A stretch of DNA of 64,000 nt. Origin: Litorivivens lipolytica (GTDB lineage Bacteria > Pseudomonadota > Gammaproteobacteria > Pseudomonadales > Spongiibacteraceae). The stretch spans positions 310,001-374,000 of the forward strand of contig NZ_JACHWY010000003.1 in the NCBI RefSeq assembly GCF_014191715.1, given 5' to 3'. Position 1 is the first letter of the stretch, and each line of letters opens with the position of its first letter. Shown piece after piece: positions 16,585-34,600 of the stretch. The notes under the pieces were generated by a model that saw only the letters and a program-made list of their open reading frames with translations, made no database searches and was not told the origin of the DNA. Both the position numbers and the translations under genes were made by a program.

Positions 16585-17727
16585 ATGAAGATCAACAGCA
16601 AACTGCCTCACGTGGGCACCACCATCTTCTCTGTGATGTCTGCGCTGGCCAATGAAAATAAGGCCATTAACCTGTCGCAAGGCTTCCCGGATTTTGCGGC
16701 CAGCGAGTATCTGCTGGAGCGTTTGAATTACCACGCTACCGCTGGGCGCAACCAGTACGCCCCCATGAACGGGGTGCCCGAGCTGCGCGAGGCCATCGCC
16801 GATCTGATTGGCGACTGCTACGGCAGAAAGGTGGATGCCGAAACCGAAATCACCCTCGCCTCCGGTGCCACCGAAGCGCTGTTTGTTGCGGTTCAGGCGA
16901 TTATCCGCCCCGGCGATGACGTGATTCTGCTGGACCCGGCCTACGACAGCTATGAGCCCGCCATTACCCTCGCCGGAGGCAGCTGCACTCGCCTTTCATT
17001 AGTGCCGCCGCGCTACCAGCCCGACTGGCAGCAGATTGAAGACAGCATCAAACCCAATACCCGGCTGATTATGGTGAACAGCCCGCACAACCCCACCGCC
17101 ACGGCCTTTACCGACAGTGACTGGCGGGAACTGGAACGCATTGCCGACAAGCACAATTTGCTGGTGATCAGTGACGAGGTCTACGAGCACATTGTGTTTG
17201 AGCGCGAGCGCAACAGCGCCCACCGCTATCCGGGGCTGGCCGAGCGCACCTTTGTGGTGTCGTCCTTTGGCAAGACCTTTCATGTGACCGGCTGGAAGCT
17301 CGGCTATTGCGTGGCGCCACCCGCTTTGAGCGAAGAGTTCCGCAAGGTGCATCAGTTCGTAACCTTCACGAGCTTTACCCCCGCCCAGTATGCGGTAGCG
17401 GATATGCTGACGGAGAAGCGCGACGAAGTGCATGCCCTCGGTGCGTTCTATCAACGCAAACGCGATTGCTTTATCCACGCCATGCGCGGCTCACGCTTTG
17501 AATTGCTGCCCAGTGCCGGCACCTATTTTGTACTGGCCGACTACAGCGCACTGAGTGACTTGAACGATGTGGACTACTGCCACCAACTAACTCGCGAACA
17601 CGGCGTAGCCGCTATTCCCCTCTCGGTTTTTTACGAAACACCCCCGGAGAGTCGCATAGTGCGTTTCTGCTTTGCCAAGCGTGAACAAACCCTGATTGAT
17701 GCTGCCGCGAGATTGAAAACGCTATGA
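16585..17727 (+). CDS. Methionine/glutamine-type aminotransferase (YbdL-like)
   Basis: A PLP-dependent class-I aminotransferase of 380 residues. The start MKINSKLPHVGTTIF at 16585 matches YbdL; the long upstream frame extension looks non-coding. Visible motifs are NLSQGFPDF, NQYAPMNGVPELR, the PLP-contact NSPHNPTAT, SDEVYEHIVF and the Schiff-base lysine in SSFGKTFHVTGWKLGY. YbdL/KAT enzymes transaminate methionine, aromatic amino acids or glutamine with 2-oxo acids. The gene overlaps the next by 4 bases (ATGA); that gene encodes an omega-amidase-like enzyme that would remove alpha-ketoglutaramate, product of glutamine transamination. Confidence 0.88.
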   Translation: MKINSKLPHVGTTIFSVMSALANENKAINLSQGFPDFAASEYLLERLNYHATAGRNQYAPMNGVPELREAIADLIGDCYGRKVDAETEITLASGATEALFVAVQAIIRPGDDVILLDPAYDSYEPAITLAGGSCTRLSLVPPRYQPDWQQIEDSIKPNTRLIMVNSPHNPTATAFTDSDWRELERIADKHNLLVISDEVYEHIVFERERNSAHRYPGLAERTFVVSSFGKTFHVTGWKLGYCVAPPALSEEFRKVHQFVTFTSFTPAQYAVADMLTEKRDEVHALGAFYQRKRDCFIHAMRGSRFELLPSAGTYFVLADYSALSDLNDVDYCHQLTREHGVAAIPLSVFYETPPESRIVRFCFAKREQTLIDAAARLKTL

Positions 17728-18488
17728 AAGTCGCCGCTCTACAAACGGTTCTGTATTGGCAGGATGCCGAGAAAAATCGCGCTTATTTTAGCGAGCTGAT
17801 CGCCGACAATGCCGACGTCGATCTGATTGTGCTGCCGGAAATGTTTACCACCGGCTTTTCGATGCAGCCAGAGCTGATTGCTGAACCCGCCGATGGCCCA
17901 ACGCTGCCATGGTTGCAATCGCTAGCGGCGCAGCATGACTGCGCCATTACCGGCTCAGTGGCGGTAGCGGACAAGGGCCATTATGTAAACCGGATGTACT
18001 GGGTATCACCCGACGGACACTGCCACTACGACAAGCGCCATCTGTTTCGCATGGCGGGAGAACACGAACACTATCAGCCCGGCTCAGAAAGAAAAATTGT
18101 GGAATACAAAGGGCTGCGCTTTTGTTTACAGGTCTGCTACGACCTGCGCTTCCCGGTCTTTAGCCGCAATCGCAATGACTACGACGTATTGATCTACGTT
18201 GCTAACTGGCCGGAGCCGCGACGCCACGCCTGGTCATCGCTGTTAACCGCACGCGCCATAGAAAATCTGAGCTTCGTGATTGGCGTAAACCGGGTGGGCG
18301 AAGACGGCAACGGCATCCCCTACAGCGGCGATAGCGCGATTATCGACTTCAAGGGCCAACCGCTGGCAAGCAGTCGGCCGCATGAACCGGAGAGTTTAAG
18401 GGCTACGCTGGATAAAACAGAACTGATGGCTTTCAGGGAGAAATTTCCTGCGCATCTGGATGCGGATGATTTCAGCCTGAAGGGCTAA
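17724..18488 (+). CDS. Nitrilase-superfamily omega-amidase (YafV-like)
   Basis: A 254-residue carbon-nitrogen hydrolase. The catalytic triad is in place: Glu in VLPEMFTTGF, Lys in HYDKRHLFRMAGE and Cys in LQVCYDLRFP. The last two motifs are characteristic of the YafV/Nit2 omega-amidase branch, which hydrolyses alpha-ketoglutaramate to 2-oxoglutarate and ammonia. It is translationally coupled to the aminotransferase and ends 4 bases inside the convergent gtrA-like gene. No signal peptide; cytoplasmic. Confidence 0.88.
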   Translation: MKVAALQTVLYWQDAEKNRAYFSELIADNADVDLIVLPEMFTTGFSMQPELIAEPADGPTLPWLQSLAAQHDCAITGSVAVADKGHYVNRMYWVSPDGHCHYDKRHLFRMAGEHEHYQPGSERKIVEYKGLRFCLQVCYDLRFPVFSRNRNDYDVLIYVANWPEPRRHAWSSLLTARAIENLSFVIGVNRVGEDGNGIPYSGDSAIIDFKGQPLASSRPHEPESLRATLDKTELMAFREKFPAHLDADDFSLKG

Positions 18489-18883
18489 CGAAAACTCCAG
18501 TATTTGTGCCCCAGAAAGCTGGTAAATACCGGAACGATTACGCCCACGCCGTGGGCAATTTCCGGCACAAACTGCTCCACACCCCACAGCGGCAGACTTT
18601 TCACCAGCACCATGCTCACCGCCCAAGTCTGGGCTACCGCCGCAACGTTGACCACGGTAAACCGGAAAAAGGATTGGCCGGTCGATTGGGCGCTATCTTT
18701 GAATACAAAAATTTTGGCAAGGATAAAGGCCGTTACCATACCGGTGAGGTAGGCAAGAATTATCGCCGGCGAAAATGGCATGGCCAGACTGTAGAGCATC
18801 CGGCTGCCAAAGTTCACCAGCGCCGCCAAGCCGCCGGTCAGCAGGAAAATCGCAAACTGACGATCGCGAAAACTGGAAATCAC
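18485..18883 (-). CDS. GtrA family membrane protein
   Basis: A 132-residue protein with four transmembrane helices of the GtrA/DPMS3 family: FLLTGGLAALVNFGSRML in helix 1 and AYLTGMVTAFILAKIFVF in the middle. GtrA proteins help polyprenyl-phosphate sugars move across or be used at the membrane. It is the last gene of the seven-gene glycan operon and starts with GTG overlapping the stop of the FAD oxidoreductase (GTGA). This suits a system that makes a lipid-linked sugar on the inner face and uses it on the outer face. Confidence 0.88.
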   Translation of the reverse strand: MISSFRDRQFAIFLLTGGLAALVNFGSRMLYSLAMPFSPAIILAYLTGMVTAFILAKIFVFKDSAQSTGQSFFRFTVVNVAAVAQTWAVSMVLVKSLPLWGVEQFVPEIAHGVGVIVPVFTSFLGHKYWSFR

Positions 18884-20175
18884 CGGGTCGCCTGTCGGGC
18901 CATATCGCGGCCAAAATCAATGCTTTCTGAAATACCCCGGTCTTCCGGGTAGTAATAAGACGTATCGGCCGCCCACAAACCTTCAACCGGAAGATCGACT
19001 GGTGGCAGACGCTCCAGAAAGCCCGGCTCACAGATGGGCTGGGCATAGCGATAGCGGTGAACATGGAAGGAAAGAAAATCGCTGTCCTGCAGTTCCGGGT
19101 TGATGCGCTTGAAATAGCCCGTGATCTTGTCGATAAACACTTCATCGCTATCGGCATAGACCGGGTGCTCACCGGGCACATAGTAGGGCACGTAAACGAT
19201 GTGCTGACCTTCTCCCAGTGGCCGCAGGTTGGTGTACTCCACGACGCCCGGAATATCCATCTCGTCGTCATTCACGTTGAGCCAGAAGTGAGGCGTGAGT
19301 GCCTTGGCCAATTTCACCGTGATACAGACCACGGCGATGTTATTGACGCTGCGATAGCCGTTAACGATGTCGTCGGGCAAATCACGAAGCACCTTGGGCA
19401 AATACGGCAAAGGAATGGTGCTTATCACGGTATCGAAGGTTTCGAAGCCTTCACGAGTTTCTACGCCCTTGAGTACGCCGTCTTCAACCACCACTCGCTG
19501 TGCGGCGCAGTTCAATCGCAGCTCTGCGCCGTGCGCCTGCAGCTGTTCCTGCAATGCCAGCAGCAAGGTATCTGAACCGCCCTCAAGATAGCCAAGCTTT
19601 TCTTTCATCAAGTTGTAACGGCTCTGGCCAATGCGGCGCAATCGGCTCCAGATCCATGCCGCAGAAAGATTGTCGGCGTACTGATAAAACTTGTAATCAA
19701 ACAACTTCTGCCACAAGGCATTCCAGGCTTCCATTCCCACCCAGCGTTTTATCCACTGGCTAGCCTCCTGATTATCAAGAGGCTTCCAGTCGCGGCGCTT
19801 GGTGGCGAGGAACACATGCAAGCCATAACGGAACTTGGCCACAAAGCTCAAACCGCGAAAGGTCAACAGTGCAATCGGATTGCCCCACTTTTGCACGCGC
19901 CCCTGAAAATAGTAGGCCATGGTGGTAACAGACCACTTTAGCTTGTCAGATAGCCCGAGCTCTTCCAGCAATGTAAAAAAGCCATCATCTGAGGTGCAGT
20001 GAAAATGGTAGTAGCGCTCTATGGCCAGACCATCCAGATCAAAACTGGCGGCCATGCCTCCGACTCGATCACCGGCTTCAAAAATCACCGGCTCGTAGCC
20101 ATCCTGAACCAGTTGCCAGGCGGTGGCCAGCCCCATCGGACCAGCACCCAGAACGGCGATCTTGCGTTTACTCAT
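18880..20175 (-). CDS. FAD/NAD-dependent oxidoreductase (protoporphyrinogen oxidase/amine oxidase fold)
   Basis: A 431-residue flavoprotein. The N-terminal dinucleotide fold is clear (VLGAGPMGLATAWQLVQDGY, then FEAGDRVGGMAAS), and the C-terminal FAD contact ends with LWAADTSYYYPEDRGISESI. The overall form resembles the amine oxidase/UDP-galactopyranose mutase-related group. The substrate is not known. It belongs to the glycan operon with 2 bases to the gene upstream and a 4-base overlap downstream; an action on a sugar donor or on the polyprenyl carrier are both possible. Confidence 0.82.
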   Translation of the reverse strand: MSKRKIAVLGAGPMGLATAWQLVQDGYEPVIFEAGDRVGGMAASFDLDGLAIERYYHFHCTSDDGFFTLLEELGLSDKLKWSVTTMAYYFQGRVQKWGNPIALLTFRGLSFVAKFRYGLHVFLATKRRDWKPLDNQEASQWIKRWVGMEAWNALWQKLFDYKFYQYADNLSAAWIWSRLRRIGQSRYNLMKEKLGYLEGGSDTLLLALQEQLQAHGAELRLNCAAQRVVVEDGVLKGVETREGFETFDTVISTIPLPYLPKVLRDLPDDIVNGYRSVNNIAVVCITVKLAKALTPHFWLNVNDDEMDIPGVVEYTNLRPLGEGQHIVYVPYYVPGEHPVYADSDEVFIDKITGYFKRINPELQDSDFLSFHVHRYRYAQPICEPGFLERLPPVDLPVEGLWAADTSYYYPEDRGISESIDFGRDMARQATR

Positions 20176-20177
20176 AA

Positions 20178-21110
20178 CTAAAATTCCAGAACCACATCGC
20201 TGTACACGGGGTGAGTGAAAGTTTCGCGTACAGCGTCTTCAAAAGATGTTGCTTTTACATTGAAAATTCCCGGCCAATCGATGATCTCAAAAGACTCATC
20301 AATGACCAGCGCCCGCAATTGATGCACCGTGAAGGGCGGATTCTTGTCGAACAGTGCCCACACCCACAGCAGACTGAAAAACACACTGTAAGGTATTGGC
20401 AGGATCAGTGATTTGGCTTTGGTGATCGACTTGATGGTTTTGATCAGATCAATATAGTCGATATGCTCCAAACCACTGATGTCATACACACCGGCGATCT
20501 CCGGCTTTTCCAGACAACGCAGGATGATATTGCAGAAATCCCCAGCATACAGCGGCTGGCGTGGATAGCGACCGAGCCCCGGCACGGGAAAAACCGGCAC
20601 TTTCTGCATAAAGCGCGACAGCCAGCCCAGATGCTTGCGATCAAACCAGCCAAACATCAGCGTTGGGCGCAATACCACACAGTTAACGCCACTCTCCAAT
20701 ACACGCTGCTCCTGCAGGGTTTTACTGCGGGTGTAGAAATCGTCGGCCTGAGAATTCACCACCGACGAGCTGATGTGGACAAGATTTGGCACGTTGTAGC
20801 GCTTCATTGCATCCAGCACATGATCCGTCGCCGCGAGATTATTGCGCTCGAATTCTTCGTAGTAGATACCGCCGATCTGCGCCTGCAGCATGACCACCGC
20901 TGATGCATTGTCAAAGTGTCCCTGCCAGTCACCCGCTTTGGCCAAGTCGGCATACTCGGCAACCACACCGGGCTGCATATCTCGCAGTATGCTGAGGTTG
21001 GCTTTGTGTTTGTCGAGCACGACGAGCTCAAGATCATCGCGCTCGACCAAACGCGCCACCAGGTTCTGACCGACCAGACCTGCGCCCCCGGCGAGAATGA
21101 TTTTTTTCAT
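20178..21110 (-). CDS. NAD-dependent epimerase/dehydratase (extended SDR)
   Basis: A 310-residue extended short-chain dehydrogenase. It shows the N-terminal GGAGLVGQNLVARL nucleotide-binding loop, a catalytic Ser region (HISSSVVNS), and a YxxxK pair in FYTRSKTLQE. The C-terminal substrate domain (about 200-310) contains a hydrophobic stretch around PIPYSVFFSLLWVWALF that may touch the membrane. The likely role is oxidation or epimerisation of a nucleotide- or lipid-linked sugar in the same pathway. The start codon overlaps the stop of the GT-C-like gene (ATGA). Confidence 0.85.
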   Translation of the reverse strand: MKKIILAGGAGLVGQNLVARLVERDDLELVVLDKHKANLSILRDMQPGVVAEYADLAKAGDWQGHFDNASAVVMLQAQIGGIYYEEFERNNLAATDHVLDAMKRYNVPNLVHISSSVVNSQADDFYTRSKTLQEQRVLESGVNCVVLRPTLMFGWFDRKHLGWLSRFMQKVPVFPVPGLGRYPRQPLYAGDFCNIILRCLEKPEIAGVYDISGLEHIDYIDLIKTIKSITKAKSLILPIPYSVFFSLLWVWALFDKNPPFTVHQLRALVIDESFEIIDWPGIFNVKATSFEDAVRETFTHPVYSDVVLEF

Positions 21111-23125
21111 ATCGCGGGAGCCTCTTCAGCATGAACGTCATGAACCGCGGGATCGCTTTGTTCCGCCTTGGGCTCAATTATGCCCTCATCTGCACCTGCT
21201 TCTGGTGTAAGCACTTCTGCGGGGAATTGAAAACTCGACAGGGTCAGTTGGTAGTCGCTCTGCCACAACACCCCAGCACCGTATTGCGCTTCGATGGTTA
21301 TTTGAGCAACGCCGGTATCAGCCTCCCCCCGTTGCAACCAGTCAGCAAACTGCTCGCGATCCTCCAGAGTCGGCGAGAGCAAAAAGCCCGCCTTGGCAAT
21401 TTCCGGGACCAAACGATAAACCTCCTGCTCCCCGCTTGTCTGCATCACCGTCATCATCAACTCCGGAGGCTTTATAAACAGTGCCCACAAACGCCCGAGA
21501 AAGGTAGACTTAAGTTTAAACTCGGCCCACAGATTGCCTCTATTTTCCGGCAGTACGACTACTTTACCCAAACGCGCCTCGCTGCGTCGCAGGCGCTCGC
21601 GCGTCAGTTCTCGCTTTGTGTCACGGCGCTCGAGCTTCAAAAACTGATCAAGGCTTTCAGTGACTTTAAAATGCTGCACAAATACTGGCCAGCTCAGCGA
21701 TTCGTCCAAGCTGGGATAACGACCATCGATAGGCGCGACATCAAATAAAAGAGTATCCGGCGCCCGGCTGCTCCTCAGGTGATTCCGATTCAGCACCAAC
21801 AGCTCTTCGGTATAGACGGAATAGCTCTGCAGTATCGGTCGCCCAGACCAATTTAAATCAGCCGCTATGGCACAGGAAATGCGCCACGGGTAGATATCCA
21901 CTCGACCTTGCAGGTCAGAATCCAGACCACAGCCCTCTACAATCTTATCCAAAGCGGCGTGGTAATCCTGCCGCCACTGAGCATCCAGCTCATCGTAATC
22001 ACGTATAACTTTTGACGTCGATTTAAACGCGTCTTTCAAATGCTGATAAAAATCGTTGGTGGAGGTTTCGCGATGCTGACGATCTATCGACATCCATGCC
22101 AGCAAGGCCAGCACGATCAAGCCCGCACTAGCGCCTTCAACGCGAACGAAACGCATCGATAAGACAGCGATCAACAGACTCAGCGCGGCAATCAGCGCAT
22201 GGGAGTCATAACGAACAAAACCCGCCTTGAAGGCCAGAAACAGGAACATGCCGGCATTCAGTGCCAGAAACCAACAGGCACTAGCTGGAGTTTCTGAGCG
22301 GAACAAAAACTGCCAGCCCAATACAATGCAGGCGATTACATACAACAGCAGCGGTGCCTCGTTACCCGGGTCAGACATAGCCTGGGCGTAGCCTGAAATG
22401 ATGGGCGACATCGCGCTAAAATAGTTTGGCAGATCAGCCACAGAATGACCGGACAGCATCCAGCCCGTGATTAGGGCCAGCAACGGCACCACACTCAAGG
22501 TGATCAGGAAAAAGCGATTGCGATGCCAGGCACTGTACCCAAGGCATAACACCACGCTCCCTAGACAGCCCACCAGGAACGAGCCTTTAATTAAAGGCAA
22601 AAGTCCGAGCGGCAAGAGCATAAGCACGAAGGCAACTTTGTTCAGCCAGTTCAAGCTGATGTGCAGTTCTTCTCGCTCAGCTTCCAAGGCGCGATTCAGA
22701 AACAGCCCAAGCAGGTAGGGGTACATAAGGAAAACAGGGTCGCCCATATAGTTCAGGCCGATTGGCACGAGCGCCACCAGCAGAATCCAGTAATAGCGAA
22801 CACCCTGCTTCAGGTACGCCAGCAGGAGAAACAGCCCTAGGGCCAAAATACTGGCAGCGATCAGACTGAAGTGAAAGATCTCCGGCTGATAAGCCTTGGT
22901 ATAGACCCCGGCAAAGGGGCCAAAGGTGAAAATCAGCTCGCGCCCGATAACCAGATTATTGGCCAACGCATAGGCCATACCCATTATCCAGGCCGGGTCG
23001 ACATCATCAATTGGCATACTCGGCGCCGCTGGCAGATACATGGCCAGACAGGCAAGTGCCAGCAGTGACAGCAACAATGCCCAACCGAGGTAACGTACTG
23101 CTTGTATCAATGCGCTGGAGCCCAT
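21107..23125 (-). CDS. Large polytopic membrane protein, GT-C glycosyltransferase-like
   Basis: A 672-residue protein with one N-terminal helix, an extracytoplasmic acidic motif PIDDVDPAW (D40, D41, D43), the motif FTFGPFAGVY, then many more hydrophobic segments to about residue 340 and a soluble C-terminal half rich in charged residues. An acidic motif in the first outer loop plus 8-12 helices and a large C-terminal domain is the plan of GT-C transferases that use polyprenyl-phosphate sugars, such as arabinofuranosyltransferases. I do not recognise a named family. The start at 23125 is chosen because TGATG overlaps the stop of the upstream reductase gene; the frame extends further but without support. 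It is the best candidate for the transferase of the operon. Confidence 0.7.
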   Translation of the reverse strand: MGSSALIQAVRYLGWALLLSLLALACLAMYLPAAPSMPIDDVDPAWIMGMAYALANNLVIGRELIFTFGPFAGVYTKAYQPEIFHFSLIAASILALGLFLLLAYLKQGVRYYWILLVALVPIGLNYMGDPVFLMYPYLLGLFLNRALEAEREELHISLNWLNKVAFVLMLLPLGLLPLIKGSFLVGCLGSVVLCLGYSAWHRNRFFLITLSVVPLLALITGWMLSGHSVADLPNYFSAMSPIISGYAQAMSDPGNEAPLLLYVIACIVLGWQFLFRSETPASACWFLALNAGMFLFLAFKAGFVRYDSHALIAALSLLIAVLSMRFVRVEGASAGLIVLALLAWMSIDRQHRETSTNDFYQHLKDAFKSTSKVIRDYDELDAQWRQDYHAALDKIVEGCGLDSDLQGRVDIYPWRISCAIAADLNWSGRPILQSYSVYTEELLVLNRNHLRSSRAPDTLLFDVAPIDGRYPSLDESLSWPVFVQHFKVTESLDQFLKLERRDTKRELTRERLRRSEARLGKVVVLPENRGNLWAEFKLKSTFLGRLWALFIKPPELMMTVMQTSGEQEVYRLVPEIAKAGFLLSPTLEDREQFADWLQRGEADTGVAQITIEAQYGAGVLWQSDYQLTLSSFQFPAEVLTPEAGADEGIIEPKAEQSDPAVHDVHAEEAPAI

Positions 23126-23862
23126 CAGAAATTCAACCGCTTGAAAATAAAGCCCGGTAGCAATCGAATCACCAGCATGATCAGCGCCCAATAACCGGGG
23201 GCGTACACCACGTCACGACGTTTGGTAATGGCTTTCTCAATACTCTTGGCCACCTGATCAGCACTGCTCACCAAGGGCCCGGGAAGGTCCATACCCGCCG
23301 TCATCGGCGTGGCTACCATACCCGGCTTGATCAGCAGAACCTGAACACCCGACGGCATCAGCCGCGCGCGCAATCCACTGCAGTAAGCTTCGACGGCCGC
23401 TTTGCAACTGCCGTAGGCAAAGTTACTGGCACGACCACGATCGCCGGCGACCGAACCAATCACAGCCAGAACGCCACGACCGGACTTTTGCATGGCGTTG
23501 GCCAGCGTTTGGGTGCAGAGAATCACCGATTCAGTGTTCACCTGCATCGCCTCGCGCAGATAATCGATATCACTTTCGCAGCGGACCTGATCAGGCAAGC
23601 TGCCCTGAGCTACCAACGCCAGATCAAAACCCTTTAACTGATCTGCCGCCTGCGCTACAGCCTCTGCAAACGCAACGTGATCGGCCAGATCGATGCAAAC
23701 GCTACTGACATCGGCGCTGCTGCGAGCTTTAAAGTCTGCTTCAACGGCAGCCAGCTTTTCAGCGTTGCGCGCTAACAGAACCACATGGCTCGCGCGCTCG
23801 GCATAGCGATTCAATGTCGCTTGAGCAATCGCCGAGGTGGCGCCGCAAATCAGAATATTCAT
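23125..23862 (-). CDS. SDR oxidoreductase, DprE2-like (polyprenyl-phospho-2-ketopentose reductase)
   Basis: A 245-residue short-chain dehydrogenase. Beginning MNILICGATSAIAQATL, it has the GATSAIA loop of the DprE2 group, the Ser of VIGSVAGDRGR and the catalytic pair in FAYGSCKAAVEAY (Tyr, Lys). In mycobacteria DprE2 reduces the 2-keto intermediate made by DprE1, finishing the epimerisation of polyprenyl-phospho-ribose to arabinose. Here it lies directly after the DprE1-like gene with a 4-base overlap, the same pairing as in Mycobacterium. The C-terminus has a hydrophobic helix (YWALIMLVIRLLPGFIF), suggesting membrane attachment. Confidence 0.85.
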   Translation of the reverse strand: MNILICGATSAIAQATLNRYAERASHVVLLARNAEKLAAVEADFKARSSADVSSVCIDLADHVAFAEAVAQAADQLKGFDLALVAQGSLPDQVRCESDIDYLREAMQVNTESVILCTQTLANAMQKSGRGVLAVIGSVAGDRGRASNFAYGSCKAAVEAYCSGLRARLMPSGVQVLLIKPGMVATPMTAGMDLPGPLVSSADQVAKSIEKAITKRRDVVYAPGYWALIMLVIRLLPGFIFKRLNF

Positions 23863-25196
23863 GCGTTTTTCTCTATGTCTGTTTTTTCTGTAAGAGCCAC
23901 TCTGCGCCAGAAAGCCGAGAGCAGCTTAGGGTCACGCAGCGCCTCAAGATCTACCCATTGCGGATAAGCCTCTTGAAAATTATGCGCCTGCATATGGGAA
24001 TCTTTTGCCGGGTAGAGTCGTCCACCGGCTTCGGAAACCATCGCATCGAGACGCGCAAATAAACGATAGTTTTCCTGCTCCCGACGCGGAAAATCCAATG
24101 CCAGACTGGTGCCTTTCATAGGAAAAGACAGCAAACCCGGCGAGGCGATATCGCCACATTTTTTCAGCACGGAAAGAAAAGAGCCCAAACCGCTGTCGGC
24201 GATCGCTTTAAGGATGGCGGGAATAACATCGCGCTCTACGGCTTCCGGAATCACGCACTGATACTGTTGAAAACCGCGACGGCCATACAGTCTATTCCAG
24301 TGACGTATGCCATCCAACGGATAAAAGAACGGGGCAACAGCGACCATTGAATCCACTACGCGTTTTTGCTGCCGCTGAAAATAAAGCTCATTAAACAGTC
24401 GCAGCGTTAAACGATTAACAGGCGAAATTGGCGGCGTCAGCGGCATCACCAAACGCCCTTCACTGGGTGCGACGCACTCACCTTTTGCTGAGTGGTTCGC
24501 GGCAATAAAGTGACCGCGACCGAGAGCGGAACCGGTTGCAAGGCAGTCAACCCAAGCCACGCTGTAGTCAAAGTCTCTGTCGTGCTGTTCGGCCAGATCA
24601 AAAAACTCATCCACGTGGTCAAAGCGCGTGCTGCGCTGATCCATCATCGACGACGCCACCGGAATCAGTTGCAACTCGACGGTTACGATCAATCCCGTCA
24701 AACCCAAACCACCGACGGTGGCCGCAAACAGCCGCTCATTTTCCTGCGCTGTGCATCTCAACAATCCCCGATCGGAACGCAACAATTCAAGTGCACGCAC
24801 ATGCCGACCGAACGTGCCAGCAACATGATGGTTCTTGCCGTGAACATCATTGGCTACCGCACCACCAACAGAAACAAAGCGAGTGCCAGGCGTAACCGGC
24901 AGGAACCATCCGCGTGGCAAACACACCATTAATAGCTCGGACAGCGTCATTCCAGCTTCGACTACAATGCAGCCAGTACTCCAGTCTGCCTCGATAAAGC
25001 GCTTCAGGTTTTCGGTGGAAACCACAGTTCCTGCATCAGCCAGACAGCTATCGCCGTAACTGCGGCCCTGGCCGTAGGGCAGTGCGCCATTCGGTAACTG
25101 CTGAAAAACATCCCCCAGTTCATGACGCCAGCTGGGCGTTATCGCAGACTGGGCTGAAGCAGGGAAACCTCCCCAATTGCCGTAACGGTTCACCAC
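23859..25196 (-). CDS. FAD-linked oxidase, DprE1-like (polyprenyl-phospho-ribose 2-oxidase)
   Basis: About 445 residues of the VAO/PCMH FAD-binding type. The FAD loop is visible (GALPYGQGRSYGDSCLAD), then PGTRFVSVGGAVANDVHGKNHH, VGGLGLTGLIV, and near the end GGRLYPAKDSHM, which contains the conserved active-site lysine of DprE1 (YxAKDS). The cysteine that benzothiazinone drugs attack in mycobacterial DprE1 aligns with an alanine here (GTSLALDFP, about residue 366). The start is unsure: GTG 25196 overlapping the upstream TAG (TAGTG) is preferred over TTG 25202 and GTG 25193. Role: oxidation at C2 of lipid-linked ribose. Confidence 0.85.
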   Translation of the reverse strand: MVNRYGNWGGFPASAQSAITPSWRHELGDVFQQLPNGALPYGQGRSYGDSCLADAGTVVSTENLKRFIEADWSTGCIVVEAGMTLSELLMVCLPRGWFLPVTPGTRFVSVGGAVANDVHGKNHHVAGTFGRHVRALELLRSDRGLLRCTAQENERLFAATVGGLGLTGLIVTVELQLIPVASSMMDQRSTRFDHVDEFFDLAEQHDRDFDYSVAWVDCLATGSALGRGHFIAANHSAKGECVAPSEGRLVMPLTPPISPVNRLTLRLFNELYFQRQQKRVVDSMVAVAPFFYPLDGIRHWNRLYGRRGFQQYQCVIPEAVERDVIPAILKAIADSGLGSFLSVLKKCGDIASPGLLSFPMKGTSLALDFPRREQENYRLFARLDAMVSEAGGRLYPAKDSHMQAHNFQEAYPQWVDLEALRDPKLLSAFWRRVALTEKTDIEKNA

Positions 25197-26641
25197 TACC
25201 AAACCGCCCCCGTGGCCAGCCAGAAAACAACCGCAAAACAGAACCCTGAAATCAGGCTGACACGATCTGCTACTGCAAACAGTACCGGGTCTTCATGGAC
25301 CTCGCCTCGATGGGCGAGCATCCACATACGGCCTACCCAAAACAGTAAAATGGGGCAGGCCAGCCAGAGGATTTCGGGATGCCTATAGAGGGCGATGATA
25401 TGCTCACTGTGAATATAGAGAGCCAGAATCAGCACCGACAGATAGCCTGATGCTGCGCCAAGGGCCGCGATCATTTCCAGATCGCCGGGGTAATAGGCCC
25501 GTCCCGGTGATTTCTCAGTGCGCCCTGCTTCGCGGCTACTATGGAGCTCTGCGTAGCGTTTAATAAGTGCCAGACTCAGAAAAATAAACATCGAGAACGC
25601 GAGCAACCAGAAGGTCAGTTGCAGTGCGAAGAGAAAGGCACCGCAAATCACTCGCATCGTATACAAGCCAGCCAGCGTCAAAACATCAACCAGCAATTGC
25701 TGCTTCAGGTAAAAGGTATAAAGCAGCGACAGCAGAAAATAAACACCGAGACTGATGGCAAAGCCGATGGGTAACAAGGCGACTGCCGTACCGAAGCTAA
25801 GCAGTAAACACAGCGGCAATAGCAACAGCGCTCGGCCGATTCCAAGGTCTCCGGAAGCCAGCGGACGAAAGCGTTTGACCCGGTGCTGACGGTCATCAGC
25901 CAGATCCATTAGGTCATTGATCAAATACACGCTGGAAGAACAGAGCCCATACAACACAAACGCCAGCACGCCGCTCGCCAATAGCGCGGCATTGTCTGCC
26001 TGATGACTGGCGAGCAAAGGAACAAAAATCAAGAAGTTTTTGACCCACTGCTTGATGCGTAGCTGTCGCAGATAGATCCGTAGACTGACCGCTGTTTTGA
26101 GGCGCGTCTCCACTACCGCCTCGCCAGCCTGGATCTTACGCTTCAAGCCATCGGAGATGTTGCAGGTATAGGCCGTGGCGGCCGAGCGCCAGACCGCAAG
26201 ATCGTCGCTGCTATTGCCGATGTAGTCAAAACCCTGCTCGCCATAGCGCTCAACTAGCGTCGCTCGCTTGGTCTCCGACGAAAGATTGGCTTCGTCGCTG
26301 GCCAACACCTCGTCAAACAACCCCAAATGGTCAGCGATAGGCTGGGCCAGCATCTCCGTTGTTGCCGTCGCCAGGACTATCCGCCGCCCTTGAGCCTTTT
26401 CCTGCTTAAGAAATTCAAGGACCGTTTTGCAATACGGAAGGCTGGCCGCATCAATAGTCACCCGGGAAGCAATTTCCCTCTTGAGCCGAGCCTTGCCCGC
26501 CAGCAGCCAAAAAGGCAGCAGGAGACAGCTCCAGAATGACTGTTTAAGCAGGGCCAGAAAAGATTCCAGCAGCATGTCGGAGCGGAGCAGGGTGCCATCG
26601 AGATCGACCGCCAATACCCTGTCTTGTGAATGTTGCTGCAC
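25196..26641 (-). CDS. Fused HAD phosphatase - UbiA prenyltransferase (polyprenyl-phosphate phosphoribosyltransferase-like)
   Basis: A 481-residue fusion. Residues 1-200 are a HAD phosphatase: VDLDGTLL (D13, D15 nucleophile and acid/base), LATATTEM (motif II) and GNSSDDLAVW (motif IV). Residues 200-481 are a UbiA-type membrane prenyltransferase with the Mg-binding NDLMDLADDRQH (from residue 242) and about eight helices. Mycobacterial Rv3806c is a UbiA protein that joins phosphoribosyl pyrophosphate to decaprenyl phosphate; a separate phosphatase then removes the 5-phosphate. Here both steps appear in one chain. GTG start at 26641 with AGGGGAC upstream. First gene of the operon; about 200 bases upstream hold its promoter. 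Confidence 0.85.
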   Translation of the reverse strand: MQQHSQDRVLAVDLDGTLLRSDMLLESFLALLKQSFWSCLLLPFWLLAGKARLKREIASRVTIDAASLPYCKTVLEFLKQEKAQGRRIVLATATTEMLAQPIADHLGLFDEVLASDEANLSSETKRATLVERYGEQGFDYIGNSSDDLAVWRSAATAYTCNISDGLKRKIQAGEAVVETRLKTAVSLRIYLRQLRIKQWVKNFLIFVPLLASHQADNAALLASGVLAFVLYGLCSSSVYLINDLMDLADDRQHRVKRFRPLASGDLGIGRALLLLPLCLLLSFGTAVALLPIGFAISLGVYFLLSLLYTFYLKQQLLVDVLTLAGLYTMRVICGAFLFALQLTFWLLAFSMFIFLSLALIKRYAELHSSREAGRTEKSPGRAYYPGDLEMIAALGAASGYLSVLILALYIHSEHIIALYRHPEILWLACPILLFWVGRMWMLAHRGEVHEDPVLFAVADRVSLISGFCFAVVFWLATGAVW

Positions 26642-26845
26642 GAGTCCCCTGCCTTCCTGATCGAGTTGGATTTGTTATAGCGCTTCCCGGCGCCGAAACA
26701 CGCTGAAATTGAGTCAGAAAACACGGGGAAAGCGGCCACATTTTGCCATATCAGCCTTCGGATGAGTACTTCCCGAGGCGCAGGCGTGGCAGGAGGGCGA
26801 TAACAGGTGAATAGGGCCGGGGCTACCTCGCCCCTGAGGCCAAGC

Positions 26846-27619
26846 TTACAACGCCCCCAGCAAGTGCCCCCCATCGACCGGCAAGGCAACCCCCGTCATA
26901 AAGGAGCCAGCGTCGCTGGCTAAAAGCAGCAGCGGGCCGCTCAGCTCGTCGAGGTTACCCAATCGCTGGGGCGGGATTTTTTTGAGGTAGGCCTGCCCTT
27001 TTGCCGAATGGAAAAAGTCGCTGTTCATTTCGGTTTCGAAATAACCGGGGCACAGCGCATTGACACGAATATTCTTACGCCACAACTCTAGAGCCGTGTT
27101 CTTGGTAAGTTGCACCACCCCCGCTTTAGCGGTGGCGTAGAAGGTCTGATCAAGGCCGGGATGCAAACCCAGAATCGATGCGACGTTAACAATGCTCCCG
27201 CCCTGACCCACGGCGGACAGCCGCCGCGCGGCCTCCTGTGAAACCCGCCAAACCGCTTTCAGATTGGTATCCATGGTGAAATCCCAGCCATCTTCGTCAC
27301 CATCGAGAAAACGACTTGGCGCGGCCACACCGGCATTGTTCACCACAATCGACACAAGCCCGAAAGCCTTCTCCGCAGCATCGAAGGCAGAGGTAATGGA
27401 ATCCGCCGAGGTAACATCCATCGCCACCGCATGCGCAGCACCGCCGTCGACCTTAATAACGTCGACCAGAGCCTTCAGGCGTTCAACACGGCGCGCACCC
27501 ACCACCACTTTAGCGCCGGCCTGTGCCAGCACCCGCGCAAAATGCTCCCCCAAGCCACTCGAAGCCCCGGTTACCAGCGCAACCTTGCCACTCAAATCAA
27601 ATCGATTATCTGCCGACAC
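26846..27619 (-). CDS. SDR family oxidoreductase (hydroxyacyl-CoA dehydrogenase-like)
   Basis: A 257-residue classical short-chain dehydrogenase with every family motif: TGASSGLGEHFARVL, NNAG (VVNNAGVAAPSRF), catalytic Ser in NVASILGLHP and YATAK for the Tyr/Lys pair, ending in TGVALPVDGGHLLGAL. It starts with GTG at 27619 behind AAGGAT. It is the third gene after an acyl-CoA dehydrogenase and a phosphotransferase, which suggests it oxidises a 3- or 4-hydroxyacyl-CoA. The LvaD protein of the Pseudomonas levulinate pathway is an SDR in a comparable setting. Confidence 0.88.
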   Translation of the reverse strand: MSADNRFDLSGKVALVTGASSGLGEHFARVLAQAGAKVVVGARRVERLKALVDVIKVDGGAAHAVAMDVTSADSITSAFDAAEKAFGLVSIVVNNAGVAAPSRFLDGDEDGWDFTMDTNLKAVWRVSQEAARRLSAVGQGGSIVNVASILGLHPGLDQTFYATAKAGVVQLTKNTALELWRKNIRVNALCPGYFETEMNSDFFHSAKGQAYLKKIPPQRLGNLDELSGPLLLLASDAGSFMTGVALPVDGGHLLGAL

Positions 27620-27623
27620 TTGC

Positions 27624-28646
27624 TTATCCTTTCTCTATCGTTTGAAGGCCCAACTCCGCCAAAGGTCGGGCTAATGCGCCATAGGCTGTTGCCTTGTCGC
27701 TGGAGGCGTTGCCATCCAGCGCGCGTTTTTGAATACCTTGCAGGATCGCACTCAAGCGGAAGAATGCGAAGGCAATGTAAAAGGTCCAATGTGGAATCTC
27801 TGCGATACCCCGGCGCTCGCAGTAGCGCGCCACATAATCCGCCTCGCTTGGAATACCCAAGGCTTCACGATCCAGGCCACCGAGACCGGGAATGGCGGCA
27901 TCGGTAGGAATCCGCCACTGCATGCACTGATAGGCAAGATCCGCATAGGGGTGACCGAGGGTCGACAGTTCCCAATCCAATAAGGCAACTACGCGATTTT
28001 CACTGGGGTGGAACATCATATTGTCGAGCCGGAAGTCCCCGTGGTTGATGCACACCAGACCGTCGCCCTCCGGTCGGTTTTCCTCAAGCCACTGTATGAG
28101 CTTTTCCATCGCCGGAATTTTTTCGGTTTCGCTCGCGCGATACTGTTTGGTCCACCGGGAAATCTGGCGCTCAAAATAATTCCCGGGCTTGCCGTAGTCC
28201 GACAGCCCCACAGCATCGACGTCTACACTGTGCAGCGCTACCAACACTTGATTCATTGCATCATAAATTGCGCTGCGCTCGCTGTTGCTCTGCTCCGGCA
28301 GGGCCGCATTCCAGAAGATACGCCCTTCAACAAAATCCATCACATAGAACATGGAGCCGATAATGCTGTCATCCTCACACAACACGCGCATTTTCGGCAC
28401 AGGCACATCGGTAGCAGCCAATGCGCTCATCACTCGAAATTCCCGATCCACCGCGTGGGCAGATTTCAGCAGCTCGCCAGGCGGCTTGCGACGCAGCACA
28501 TAGCTACCGCTTTCTGCACTCAGCAAATAGGTTGGATTGGACTGACCGCCGGCAAACTTTTCGGCCGTCATCGGCCCCTTAAAACCATCGATATGCTCGG
28601 CGAGATACCCTTCCAGTTTCGATGTGTCGAGTTCAAATGCAGACAT
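27624..28646 (-). CDS. Phosphotransferase (APH fold; ACAD10/11 N-domain, LvaA-like)
   Basis: A 340-residue aminoglycoside-phosphotransferase-fold kinase. Visible motifs are KFAGGQSNPTYLL and YVLRRKPPG (ATP-binding lysine), the catalytic loop INHGDFRLDNMMF (HGDxxxxN) and the metal Asp in VVALLDWELSTLGHPYADLA. This is the branch fused to acyl-CoA dehydrogenase in eukaryotic ACAD10/11 and represented by LvaA in Pseudomonas putida, where 4-hydroxyacyl-CoA is phosphorylated at the 4-OH. The adjacent gene is an acyl-CoA dehydrogenase, the same partner. Antibiotic resistance is not implied. Confidence 0.88.
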   Translation of the reverse strand: MSAFELDTSKLEGYLAEHIDGFKGPMTAEKFAGGQSNPTYLLSAESGSYVLRRKPPGELLKSAHAVDREFRVMSALAATDVPVPKMRVLCEDDSIIGSMFYVMDFVEGRIFWNAALPEQSNSERSAIYDAMNQVLVALHSVDVDAVGLSDYGKPGNYFERQISRWTKQYRASETEKIPAMEKLIQWLEENRPEGDGLVCINHGDFRLDNMMFHPSENRVVALLDWELSTLGHPYADLAYQCMQWRIPTDAAIPGLGGLDREALGIPSEADYVARYCERRGIAEIPHWTFYIAFAFFRLSAILQGIQKRALDGNASSDKATAYGALARPLAELGLQTIEKG

Positions 28647-30790: not shown

Positions 30791-31687
30791 GTGAATCTCT
30801 CCCGCATCGACCTCAATCTGTTTGTGGTATTCGAAACAGTATTTAGCCAACACAGCCTGACCCGCGCTGCCGAAGTGCTGCATGTCAGCCAACCGGCCGT
30901 GAGCAATTCCCTGTCTCGCCTGCGCAAGCTGTTTGATGACCCATTGTTTGTCCGCAGTCCGGGCGGCATGACACCGACACCCCGCGCCCAACAATTGATT
31001 TGCCCGGTGCGCGAAGCCCTCGGCCTGCTGGATAACTGCGTCAGCGACCGCCTGGCGTTCGACCCGAAAACCGCTCGCCAAACCTTTCGCATTCACGCCA
31101 CTGAGCATGCGGAAACCCACGTACTACCCAAGCTGGTAAAAAAACTGGGCGAACAGGCACCGGGTATCAGTCTGGAAATTGTGTTTCTGAATCGACGGGA
31201 TGCGCCACTGGCCATGGCGCGCGGGGAGCTGCATCTGGCGCTGGACGCACCGCTGCTTAGCCACCCTGAGCTGATTAGTCGCCCCCTGCTTAAAGACGAG
31301 TACGTGTGTATTTTCCGCAGCGGTCATCCGCTGGCGCGGCGCCGGTTAACCCTGAAACAGTATCTTGCGTCGGAACACGTACATGTTTCCAGTCGGGTTA
31401 AGGGAAGCGGTCACGTAGATCTGGCATTGCGCTCGGCGGGGGAACAGCGTCGCATTGCCCTGCGCTTGCAGCACTTTACGGCGCTGCCAGCGATTCTCGA
31501 ACAGTCAGACCTGCTGGCATCAATTCCCGCCGGGGCGACCAGAGGCTGGCCGTTTCCTGTGCGCAAGCTGCCGTTCGAAACACCTGAGTTGGCACTGCAG
31601 GTGTTCTGGCATCGAAGCGTGGATCACGACCCGGCCAATCGATGGTTGCGTGAAGCACTGCTGGATTTATCGATCATGCGCGGATAG
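30791..31687 (+). CDS. LysR family transcriptional regulator
   Basis: A 298-residue LysR-type regulator. The N-terminal helix-turn-helix is clear (LNLFVVFETVF, LTRAAEVLHVSQPAVSNSL, LRKLFDDPLFVRSPGGMTPT), followed by a type-2 periplasmic-binding-like effector domain. GTG at 30791 is preferred over GTG 30782 because AGGTGA lies 6 bases before it and the protein then starts MNLSRIDLNLF, as usual in the family. Divergent to the histidine phosphatase/acyl-CoA dehydrogenase genes, which it probably controls. Its last 64 bases overlap the convergent EAL gene. Confidence 0.88.
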   Translation: MNLSRIDLNLFVVFETVFSQHSLTRAAEVLHVSQPAVSNSLSRLRKLFDDPLFVRSPGGMTPTPRAQQLICPVREALGLLDNCVSDRLAFDPKTARQTFRIHATEHAETHVLPKLVKKLGEQAPGISLEIVFLNRRDAPLAMARGELHLALDAPLLSHPELISRPLLKDEYVCIFRSGHPLARRRLTLKQYLASEHVHVSSRVKGSGHVDLALRSAGEQRRIALRLQHFTALPAILEQSDLLASIPAGATRGWPFPVRKLPFETPELALQVFWHRSVDHDPANRWLREALLDLSIMRG

Positions 31688-34600
31688 TTGCGATTGTGCT
31701 GAATAACAAAATCGATAAATTCTTCGCGGCAAAGCGCCCGTGAATAGTAAAAGCCCTGCAGGTAATGGCAGCCCAGCTGCCGCAAGATCGAGAATTGCCC
31801 GGGCGTTTCCACACCTTCGGCGACAACCAGAATGCGCAGGCTGTGCGCCATGGAGATGATGGCCTGTACCAATGAGCGCGCATCGCCACTGTTCTCAATA
31901 TCGCGAATAAAGGATTTATCGATCTTGACCACATCGACCGGAAACTTCTGCAAGTAGCTCAAAGATGAGTAACCAGTACCAAAATCATCAATCGCAATTT
32001 TAATGCCCGCGCGGCGCAATTCTACGAGCTGATCAATAATTTCACTGCTGTCCTGCATTAGCAGGTTTTCGGTGATTTCTACGGTGATGTTGGGGAAAAT
32101 CGACTGGTCATGCAGGACGTCCAACACGGAATGCTGCGTGCGGGATTCATCGAGAAACTCGCGGGTCGACCGGTTGAACGCCAGGGCAATATCAGTCCCG
32201 GTTTCGGCATTGATGATCGCCATGTCTTCGCAAGACTGGCGCATAACAAACTCACCCAGCTCGACAATCATGCCGGTGTCTTCGGCTAGCGGAATAAATT
32301 CAGCCGGCGAAACATCACCCCAGCGCACCAGCGCCTCACATTTAACCACCTGACCGCTAGCTGCATCGATTATCGGCTGATAGAACACGGACAGCTCTTT
32401 CTCTTTCAGCGCCGCAGCCAACTTCACATGAAGGCCATGGCGCCGATCAACATCTTCCTGCATGGAGCTGGTGAAATAGCGCACGGTGTTTCGGCCCGCA
32501 GCCTTGGCGGCATACATCGCCTGATCCGCATGCCGGAGCAGCGTTTCAACATCTCGCCCGTCCTGAGGATAGAGGCTGACACCAATACTCGCCGAGGTGC
32601 AAACCTGATGATCTCCAATCGTAACCGGTTCCTTGGCCAAGGCAATCAGTTGTTCGGCGACGCGAGAGCAAGCGCGCGCGCTGGCAACGCCCGGCAGCAT
32701 CACCGTAAATTCATCACCTCCCAACCTGGCCACCATGTCCCGGCTGCGCAACAGATTATTAAAGCGCCGCCCCAAGGCCACCAACAACTCATCGCCAACA
32801 CCGTGCCCAAGCGAATCATTCACATCTTTGAAGTGATCCAGATCGATAAACAGAATGGCGACGTGCTGCTCTTCAATACGCGGCGTCGACAACACCGCAG
32901 CGAGCCGCTCAGAAAATTGTATCCGGTTCGGCAGCCCAGTCAGCGGATCGGTGGTTGCTTGACGGCGAATAGTTTCATCGGCTCGTCGTATGGCAGAGAT
33001 ATCTTGTACCACGCCATGCAGATAGATGACCCGCTCCTGCTCTTTTACGGGCTCAATGATATGGCGCAGCCAAACAGCATCCTCGCCTTCTTTTTCAACC
33101 ACAACTTCGAAAGTTTGAGACTTACCTTTGCTGACCGCCTCACGAATACGCTCTTTGATCAGATTCCGGTTGGTTTCGTCGTAAAAATCAAGCCAGCTTG
33201 TGGGTGACTGCCCCGCGGTGCGCGGCGGCATTCTGTGCAACGCAAATACTTCGTCAGCAACATGTTCGCAACCACTGCGAAGATCGAGCTGCCAACCACC
33301 GACGTCGGCAATCGTGCTGACTCTACGCAACATGCTTTCGTTGCGCTTGAGGTCACCACTCAGCCGAATGCGCGCGCCAAACTGGCGAAAGGCAATATGC
33401 ACCGCCAGACCCAAGACCAGCCCAATGGCGATCGCCGCCGGCCAGAACCAAACCATCCAGGCGGGCGCGCTCTGCCAACCACCTTTGGGAGTCGCAGCAA
33501 TATCCCATTCCACCACCCCAAGGGATACCCGCATACTGACCGGATCACGCTCAAACACGCCGATGTCACCATGGATTAATGGGTCACCTACCGCCCACGC
33601 CAATCGCGTATGGCGCATTGCCACATCCAAGCCCAGATTCGGCGCGTTAAGCCCGATATCATCCACCAGGCCATCAAAATCGACGGGGGCAGAAACAATA
33701 CCCCAGAAGATATCCTCACCAGCCTTATCCAGGAAGACGGGTGCCCGCCCGATAATGGCGCGCCCTCCCTGCACGAGTTCCAAGGGTCCGGCAACGACCA
33801 TGCGACGCAGGTCGCGGGCCAACTCAACCATGGGCATCTGTTCAGCGTTGGTGCGGTAGTCAAGACCAATCGCCTTGCGGTTCCCCGCCAGCGGATAAAC
33901 ATGGCGCACCACCAAGTCCGGCGCCGCCGCAATGTTGACCAACAGCGGGTCTTGATCAATCAGACCACTAACGAAGTCGGCATAGCGCTGTTGACTCAAG
34001 TCTGGTTCCGACGCGATCAGCCCCACCACGCCACGCAACAAGGCAAACTGACCATTGATCCGACCTTCCAGCTGCACCCGAATACTCGCCAGCTGGCTCA
34101 TCACATCGTGGCGCTGCTGTTCGTTAAATCGGCCTCTCTGCTGCGCTTCAATAATCAGCGCCAAACCCATCACAACCCCGAAGATCAGCAAGGGCATGCC
34201 AAAGACCGGGGAAAGACGGGCGACTAATAACAGAAGCAGCAAGCCAGCAGCACCTGCTGCCATCAGGTACCAAGGGCTAGACGATTGCTTTGGCTGTGCC
34301 TGAACATCAGCCTGATAATGGAACCCCGCATCGAGGGCTTCGGACTTTACCAGCCCGGCGCTACGGAGCATCCGATGCACACTTTCCCAGCGCGTGGGAT
34401 CATTAAAGCCCAAGGGTATATGGGGGTAATACAGCAGACTCGCCACATGCTTGGCGAAATAGCGGTTGTAGTCCTGCGCGGATTCGTAGTGGCTCACACT
34501 GCGGGGAATTTCCGAGATTCTTGTAGCCATCACTTCCGGATTTTTCATCGCGTAGTGCCAGCCCTGAATACTGGCCTCGACAAATTTACGCACCATCTCC

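Follow-up and report, generated by a model that had tools for sequence, protein, structure and literature searches.

The closest described counterparts of the locus considered here are the three-component systems for extracytoplasmic pentofuranose addition that Kelly et al. reported in 2024 for Citrobacter youngae O1 and O2 (PMC11127046). In Citrobacter one added short-chain dehydrogenase/reductase (SDR) epimerase alters the pentofuranose, systems of Xanthomonas and Bacillus with multiple candidate epimerases are mentioned and left open, and homologues of DprE1 and DprE2 are tied to glycans that contain arabinofuranose (Araf) (PMC11127046). In the PA7 type of Pseudomonas aeruginosa the pilin glycan was reported to be α-1,5-linked D-Araf (PMC12369383). 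Both the concept of adding pentofuranoses outside the cytoplasm and the reactions leading as far as Araf were known before (PMC11127046). The present study concerns a seven-gene operon of Litorivivens lipolytica (genes g1 to g7), located at 18485–26641 of a 64,000-nucleotide stretch (assembly GCF_014191715.1, contig NZ_JACHWY010000003.1, positions 310,001 to 374,000), which is further referred to as the window and to which all coordinates below apply. Its products very probably assemble a sugar resembling arabinose on a lipid of the membrane and link it to an acceptor beyond the inner membrane. The gene set is widespread, its two extra redox enzymes suggest a final sugar other than plain arabinose, and the evidence tips slightly towards a lipid-linked pentofuranose that is made and used one step beyond arabinose. 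Computation gave the family or fold of each of the seven proteins and the linkage of g5 and g6 with g1–g3.

Organization of the operon

In the open reading frame (ORF) list of the window the seven minus-strand ORFs are tightly packed and follow the order of transcription from g1 to g7. The g1 gene (25196..26641, 481 amino acids) is predicted to encode a fusion of a HAD phosphatase, at the N-terminus, with a polyprenyl-phosphate phosphoribosyltransferase of the UbiA type, followed by a DprE1-like flavin adenine dinucleotide (FAD) oxidase (g2; 23859..25202) and a DprE2-like SDR reductase (g3; 23125..23862). The next gene encodes a candidate glycosyltransferase of the C fold class (GT-C) with a C-terminal beta domain, which occupies an exchangeable slot (g4; 21107..23191), and the set is completed by an extended SDR of the Epimerase family (g5; 20178..21110), an FAD enzyme of the PRK07233 family with phytoene-desaturase-like character (g6; 18880..20175), and a GtrA-family membrane protein, a candidate flippase component (g7; 18485..18883).

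Overlaps of 4 bases join g2 to g3, g4 to g5, and g6 to g7, and g5 is separated from g6 by 2 bases. The longest ORFs give overlaps of 7 bases for g1/g2 and 67 bases for g3/g4, while the likely alternative starts, GTG at 25196 (TAGTG) for g2 and ATG at 23125 (TGATG) for g4, reduce both to a single base; a predicted local distance difference test score (pLDDT) below 50 at residues 1–9 and 12–24 of the g4 model is in line with the shorter form. With these starts the operon appears as it was given in a preliminary description based on the sequence alone, that is, seven minus-strand genes in this order with 1–4 base overlaps or a 2-base gap. The same genes are met together again in unrelated genomes and plasmids, so the grouping goes beyond chance.

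Core enzymes

The g1 protein scored above the cut-off of the NCBIfam model NF006088 (622 against 351 bits) and matched the solved decaprenyl-phosphate phosphoribosyltransferase 8j8j with an E value of 4.9e-27. It contains the motifs DLDGT (HAD) at 13, NDxxDxxxD at 242, and KRYxE at 361, the equivalents of which were probed by mutation in Citrobacter ORF15 (PMC11127046). Its score with the NCBIfam decaprenyl-phosphate phosphoribosyltransferase equivalog was 149 bits, below the cut-off of 207. The top NCBIfam model of g2 was DprE1 (NF053785; 357 bits, below the cut-off of 500) and its best solved relative was also DprE1 (E 1e-65), with the FAD-site and AKDS motifs retained. The g3 protein exceeded the PRK07102 cut-off (287 against 267 bits), had the DprE2 model in second place (177 bits, below the cut-off of 250), carried YxxxK at 150, and gave the solved DprE2 21gq_C as top match in the PDB (E 3.5e-25).

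Because equivalog cut-offs were missed, these proteins are to be regarded as relatives of DprE1 and DprE2 rather than certified equivalogs. In this sense the assignment of g1–g3 as Rv3806c-type, DprE1, and DprE2 relatives holds, and their activities in this organism are predicted from sequence. The preliminary description had named the same three families, and both profile and solved-structure matches placed them far above alditol oxidase and quinone prenyltransferases. Alditol oxidase, quinone prenyltransferase, and heme O synthase were also considered for g1 and g2 and are disfavoured by the scores. As a separate observation, the DprE1 segment WNICVDFP corresponds to TSLALDFP in g2 (LDFP at residues 369–372), with alanine in place of the cysteine targeted by covalent DprE1 inhibitors.

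Coupling of g5 and g6 to the core enzymes

In a class sample of 369 genomes (g5 at E ≤ 1e-40, close g6 at ≥45% identity) g5 and close g6 were found in the same 13 genomes (Fisher p 3e-24, ignoring relatedness), and g6-like proteins of 26–31% identity, without g5, were present in three more. Seven of the other 12 g5/g6 genomes had all six genes (g1–g3 and g5–g7) in one locus (L015, L100, L104–L107, and L109); L101 lacked only a g7 match, L108 lacked g1 at a contig end, and G399 was split over two contigs (L012 and L102). In G087 and G338, where the search covered g2, g5, and g6, the genes were scattered and g2 was away from g5, yet all three were kept. The g1 proteins of L104, L105, and L109 (at about 6650, 6560, and 6650, respectively) are UbiA proteins of 288–293 amino acids without the HAD part.

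The scan of named genomes by g5 alignment gave at least 507 relatives, the best 80 of which were analyzed. In this set g1, g2, g3, g5, and g6 were present in all 52 loci that were 20 kb or longer, and g7 in 51 of them (not in L185), while the 28 shorter loci contained all six genes in 15 cases, lacked only g7 in one, and held fewer in 12. The carriers of the full g1-g2-g3-g5-g6 set among these best 80 were Pseudomonas, Burkholderiales, methylotrophs, and others. The non-pathogenic Methylovulum miyakonense HT12 is also a carrier (L191). All six genes were also found in seven of the eight plasmid records with a g6 match (Rhizobium, Agrobacterium, Burkholderia stagnalis, and a Rhodobacteraceae strain), the eighth, from Embleya, having g6 alone at 32% identity; no g6 match was obtained among 50,697 phage records at 1e-20.

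The reverse relation is different. In a phylum sample of 398 genomes, examined with bit-score thresholds and neighbourhoods of up to 20 kb (some ending early at contig ends, e.g., L061, L063, and L064), HAD-UbiA matches were found in 48. The 47 other HAD-UbiA loci were accompanied by g2 and g3 only (26 loci), g2 only (7), g2, g3, g5, g6, and g7 (6), none of these (6), g3 (1), or g7 (1), so that g5/g6 were not seen near 41 of the 47. In one Pseudomonas genus 12 DprE1 matches occurred in 11 of 25 genomes, and of the 11 loci read one (L262) had g5–g7 and ten, PA7 among them, did not; L263 and L264 have g1–g3 proteins 45–56% identical to those of the window and no g5–g7. The PA7 locus (in genome G805) contains relatives of g1, g2, and g3 with no g5, g6, or g7 match at 1e-4, and as its glycan is reported as D-Araf, Araf does not need g5/g6 there. 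When the presence of g5/g6 was mapped onto a tree of 66 g2 proteins, 6 changes were required, compared with a mean of 22.5 after shuffling. According to these data g5/g6 look like a fixed extension of the arabinofuranose pathway, with a one-way dependence on g1–g3.

Some HAD-UbiA loci have other compositions. L073, L075, L079, and L081 contain HAD-UbiA and DprE1-like genes with no g3 match; in L073 and L079 an SDR ORF of 335 amino acids comes next, and g5 matches of 24–25% are present in L073, L075, and L081, which is possibly another epimerase pairing. In L091 the HAD-UbiA gene stands beside GtrA with no g2, g3, g5, or g6 matches, perhaps as a ribofuranose system with a GtrA flippase.

Properties of g5, g6, and g7

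The g5 protein belongs to the Pfam Epimerase SDR family, and its GxxGxxG and SSS motifs, Y126, and K130 are invariant in 14 of 14 aligned sequences; no close solved relative of it was found. The g6 protein is well above the PRK07233 cut-off (548 against 252 bits) and is modelled with a pLDDT of 91.7. Its closest fold is phytoene desaturase 5mog (Z 34.0, root mean square deviation 3.2 over 422 residues), followed by PPO (Z 32.3), UDP-galactopyranose mutase 4dsg (Z 30.2), and amine oxidases (Z up to 29.6), while the UDP-galactopyranose mutase family was absent from its Pfam hits and from the 25 best NCBIfam hits. The g7 protein exceeds the cut-off of Pfam GtrA (PF04138; 63.4 against 26.1 bits).

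Membrane protein g4 and the transferase position

By sequence g4 had no match in Pfam, NCBIfam, or the PDB, and its structure was modelled from an alignment of 15 sequences with a pLDDT of 83.5. Among the 20 top rows of the VIA list, 17 are GT-C transferases (ALG3, Pmt4, AftA, OST, PglB, AglB, DPY19, and ArnT), with Z scores of 6.2–8.1, and the C-terminal residues 440–656 align with AlgX (Z 6.1). The 559-residue membrane protein of the PA7 locus was also considered as a relative of g4 and was rejected, the profile comparison giving a probability of 1.6%.

The spacing between g3 and g5 in 73 named loci was 0.4–2.5 kb in 39, shorter in 27, and longer in 7. Large membrane proteins in this slot or on its flank fall into several sequence groups without linkage at 1e-6: a chained group of 62 (including g4), 10 proteins with a WAED-type start, 10 on the flank after g7, and a group of 5, besides ungrouped single proteins that occupy the slot in L128 and in L188. 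Only 18 of these slot and flank proteins are direct matches of g4 at 1e-3. The transferase position is therefore exchangeable, a logic that resembles the Gtr serotype modules. The preliminary description had called g4 GT-C-like, which agrees with the predicted fold, though at modest Z scores. It had also asked whether SDR, FAD oxidoreductase, and GT-C protein co-occur; the SDR and a close FAD enzyme were present in the same genomes, and the transferase slot is exchangeable.

Proposed pathway and alternative explanations

From these relationships we infer that the proteins have the same activities as their relatives. What g5 and g6 act on and in which sequence, how the donor is flipped and transferred and to what, and which sugar results, are proposed on the same footing. 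The donor would start from phosphoribosyl pyrophosphate (PRPP) through g1, after which g2 would oxidize C2 and g3 would reduce it with inversion to give polyprenyl-phosphate-D-arabinofuranose. A further redox pair, g6 and g5, may then act on the lipid-linked sugar and alter another carbon by epimerization or a related redox step, g7 may help the donor across the membrane, and g4 may pass the sugar on to a glycan or protein of the envelope. We favour this additional redox reaction on the sugar, which would parallel that of DprE1/E2, because g5/g6 accompany g1–g3 while Araf does without them. A plain Araf donor plus two added enzymes, which the preliminary description took for the end product, does not fit well with the contrast of PA7, where g1–g3 without g5/g6 are associated with D-Araf, and with the pairing of g5/g6 with g1–g3 in every long locus of the analyzed best 80, both of which point to a further step beyond Araf.

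In its boldest form, which as a whole we consider rather unlikely, this proposal says that g6/g5 are a second FAD-oxidase/SDR-reductase pair leading to a pentofuranose new to glycans, most simply D-lyxofuranose (C2 inverted by g2/g3 and C3 by g6/g5), and that a constant six-gene donor cassette feeds many unrelated transferases across Proteobacteria. The O-polysaccharide of Coxiella has a branched lyxofuranose derivative. Lyxofuranose is found in no solved carbohydrate structure according to Kelly et al. (PMC11127046). Should the added enzymes indeed produce another furanose, the current picture of bacterial surfaces lacks a sugar; otherwise some other reason must be sought for their close association with the arabinose enzymes.

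Several observations weigh against a step beyond arabinose or against parts of the proposed pathway. The best 80 of at least 507 relatives are the most similar ones, so the named-genome set leans to close relatives. Most short contigs without g1–g3 stop within a few kb; however, two that carry g5/g6 without g1–g3, L190 (11 kb, g6 at 42%) and L163, extend for several kb on at least one side without them, the L164 contig has g1, g4, g5, and g6 but no g2/g3, and two more genomes of the order have g5-g6-g7 contigs without g1–g3 (L230 and L231). For the transfer step, Foldseek returned nothing for g4 at E 0.001, the best matches being ArnT (0.0057) and AftA (0.016), and Z scores of at most 8.1 are weak for a mostly helical protein, so that the modelled fold is suggestive only. 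GalE-type SDRs are able to epimerize alone, and the need for g6 is then not obvious. Phytoene desaturase acts on an isoprenoid chain, and as it is the closest fold of g6 the lipid could be the target.

Among the alternatives, the one in which the donor is plain polyprenyl-phosphate-D-Araf and g5/g6 are accessory, modifying the acceptor glycan or having a cofactor role, is unlikely, though more probable than the others. The full set of Araf enzymes is present, and in the PA7 locus homologous g1–g3 suffice for a glycan reported as D-Araf; strict coupling of g5/g6 to g1–g3 is nevertheless hard to explain if Araf needs neither, and the fact that cassette transferases come from several unrelated families makes a common acceptor-modifying role less likely. 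In another alternative, which is improbable, g6 (and g5) would modify the polyprenyl part of the carrier, as phytoene desaturase or hydroxysqualene dehydroxylase might, with the sugar left as Araf. Both sequence (E 1.8e-11) and fold make phytoene desaturase the nearest solved relative of g6, and the HpnE model gives 66.5 bits on g6, below its cut-off, but loci with g1–g3 alone manage without g6, and since the same fold is found in UDP-galactopyranose mutase and amine oxidases (Z 28–30) it does not define the substrate.

If g5–g7 served a lipid-linked sugar of their own, transferred together with Araf via the same glycan pathway, this would account for the contiguity of g5-g6-g7 in most loci, sometimes ahead of g2-g3 (L106 and L107); such a sugar is very improbable, as no constant second donor synthase (e.g., GtrB-like) stands beside g5–g7 in the annotated plasmid loci and the coupling to g1–g3 is too tight for an independent sugar. 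Finally, UbiA, FAD_binding_4, and adh_short, the Pfam families matched by the core proteins, are broad, which would leave room for an alditol or lactone oxidase with a quinone-type prenyltransferase in an unrelated function. This is hardly credible given phosphoribosyltransferase, DprE1, and DprE2 matches far above xylitol oxidase and 4-hydroxybenzoate octaprenyltransferase, and given two further UbiA-family proteins elsewhere in the genome with much higher UbiA scores than g1.

Genomic context

A stretch at 18482..27624, which spans the operon and also an SDR gene at 26846–27619, is missing at the corresponding position in the congener G002 (70% complete), where its neighbours lie about 600 bases apart; the operon was therefore gained here or lost there. 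The comparison rests on G002, as the contig of G001 ends at the site. At 1e-60 g6 was found in none of 20 other genomes of the family searched. An identical segment of 200 bases is common to L060 of G533, a genome of the same order, and Pseudomonas sp. GM50 (L194), in agreement with a placement of the window in the order of Pseudomonas. Between the neighbours in G002 there is a prepilin-like ORF of 157 amino acids (L225:9083–9556), of which the own genome of the operon holds five weak relatives (best E 5.6e-7). Pilin was considered as the acceptor, but a scan for the prepilin motif showed no such ORF in the window and, among 96 cassette loci, a single one, in L104.

The G+C content of the operon stretch is 0.53–0.54 in most 2-kb bins, within the window range of 0.50–0.61. 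Between 18000 and 28700 neither promoter-like sites (5, with 6.9 expected from shuffles) nor terminator-like sites (15, with 13.7 expected and a standard deviation of 3.5) were in excess, and tRNA and Rfam matches were absent from the window. A carbon-nitrogen hydrolase gene (17724–18488, plus strand) converges on g7 with a 4-base overlap of the ends, and a gene at 31624–35268 (minus strand) encodes a protein of 1214 amino acids with NMT1/THI5-like, CHASE, GGDEF, and EAL domains.

Comparison with known systems

The systems of Kelly et al., the closest precedent, which the preliminary description had omitted, share with this operon a HAD-UbiA fusion acting on PRPP, a redox-altered lipid-linked pentofuranose, a flippase candidate, and, to judge from the predicted fold of g4, perhaps a GT-C transferase. 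The HAD and polyprenyl phosphoribosyltransferase parts by which they are recognized are both predicted in g1, and the DprE1/E2 homologues of Araf systems have their counterparts in g2 and g3. The g5 protein, which carries an NAD-binding glycine motif and YxxxK, may be an epimerase of the type of Citrobacter ORF13. The differences concern the flippase, which is of the MATE family there, while none of the seven genes here encodes one and GtrA (g7) is found instead; the redox enzymes, four here against none (O1) or one SDR (O2) in Citrobacter; and the transferase, a GT136 GT-C protein there and in g4 a GT-C-like predicted fold without a sequence family (PMC11127046). As multi-epimerase systems are mentioned in that paper, part of the g1–g7 set may have been seen before.

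For the operon the same three core activities are predicted as in the mycobacterial pathway to decaprenyl-phosphate-arabinose (Rv3806c, Rv3807c, DprE1, and DprE2), whereas Rv3807c is replaced here by the fused HAD phosphatase and g1–g3 remain below the equivalog cut-offs. In agreement with the preliminary description, that pathway as set out in PMC11127046 contains no step for g5 or g6. The preliminary description had also pointed to the pilin-modifying set of PA7-type strains: the P. aeruginosa PA7/P. paraeruginosa locus PSPA7_6245-6251 has relatives of g1, g2, and g3 at 30, 45, and 46% identity, but its g1 relative is opposite in strand to g2/g3 and matches the UbiA part only, g5–g7 gave no match there at 1e-4, and no relationship to g4 could be detected for its 559-residue membrane protein.

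No description of a g5-g6-g7 set with DprE1/E2 was found in the literature searched, where subscription papers and supplements were mostly outside reach, so that absence from print is not shown. Within this literature the tight coupling of g5 and g6, their apparently one-way dependence on g1–g3, the association with GtrA, and a transferase slot with varying occupants are new. The last two features recall the serotype-conversion modules GtrA-GtrB-Gtr (PMC11127046), which likewise combine a constant donor and GtrA with an exchangeable transferase; in contrast to them, the present operon has no GtrB, and its donor is predicted to be formed by g1 from PRPP and then modified by redox enzymes.

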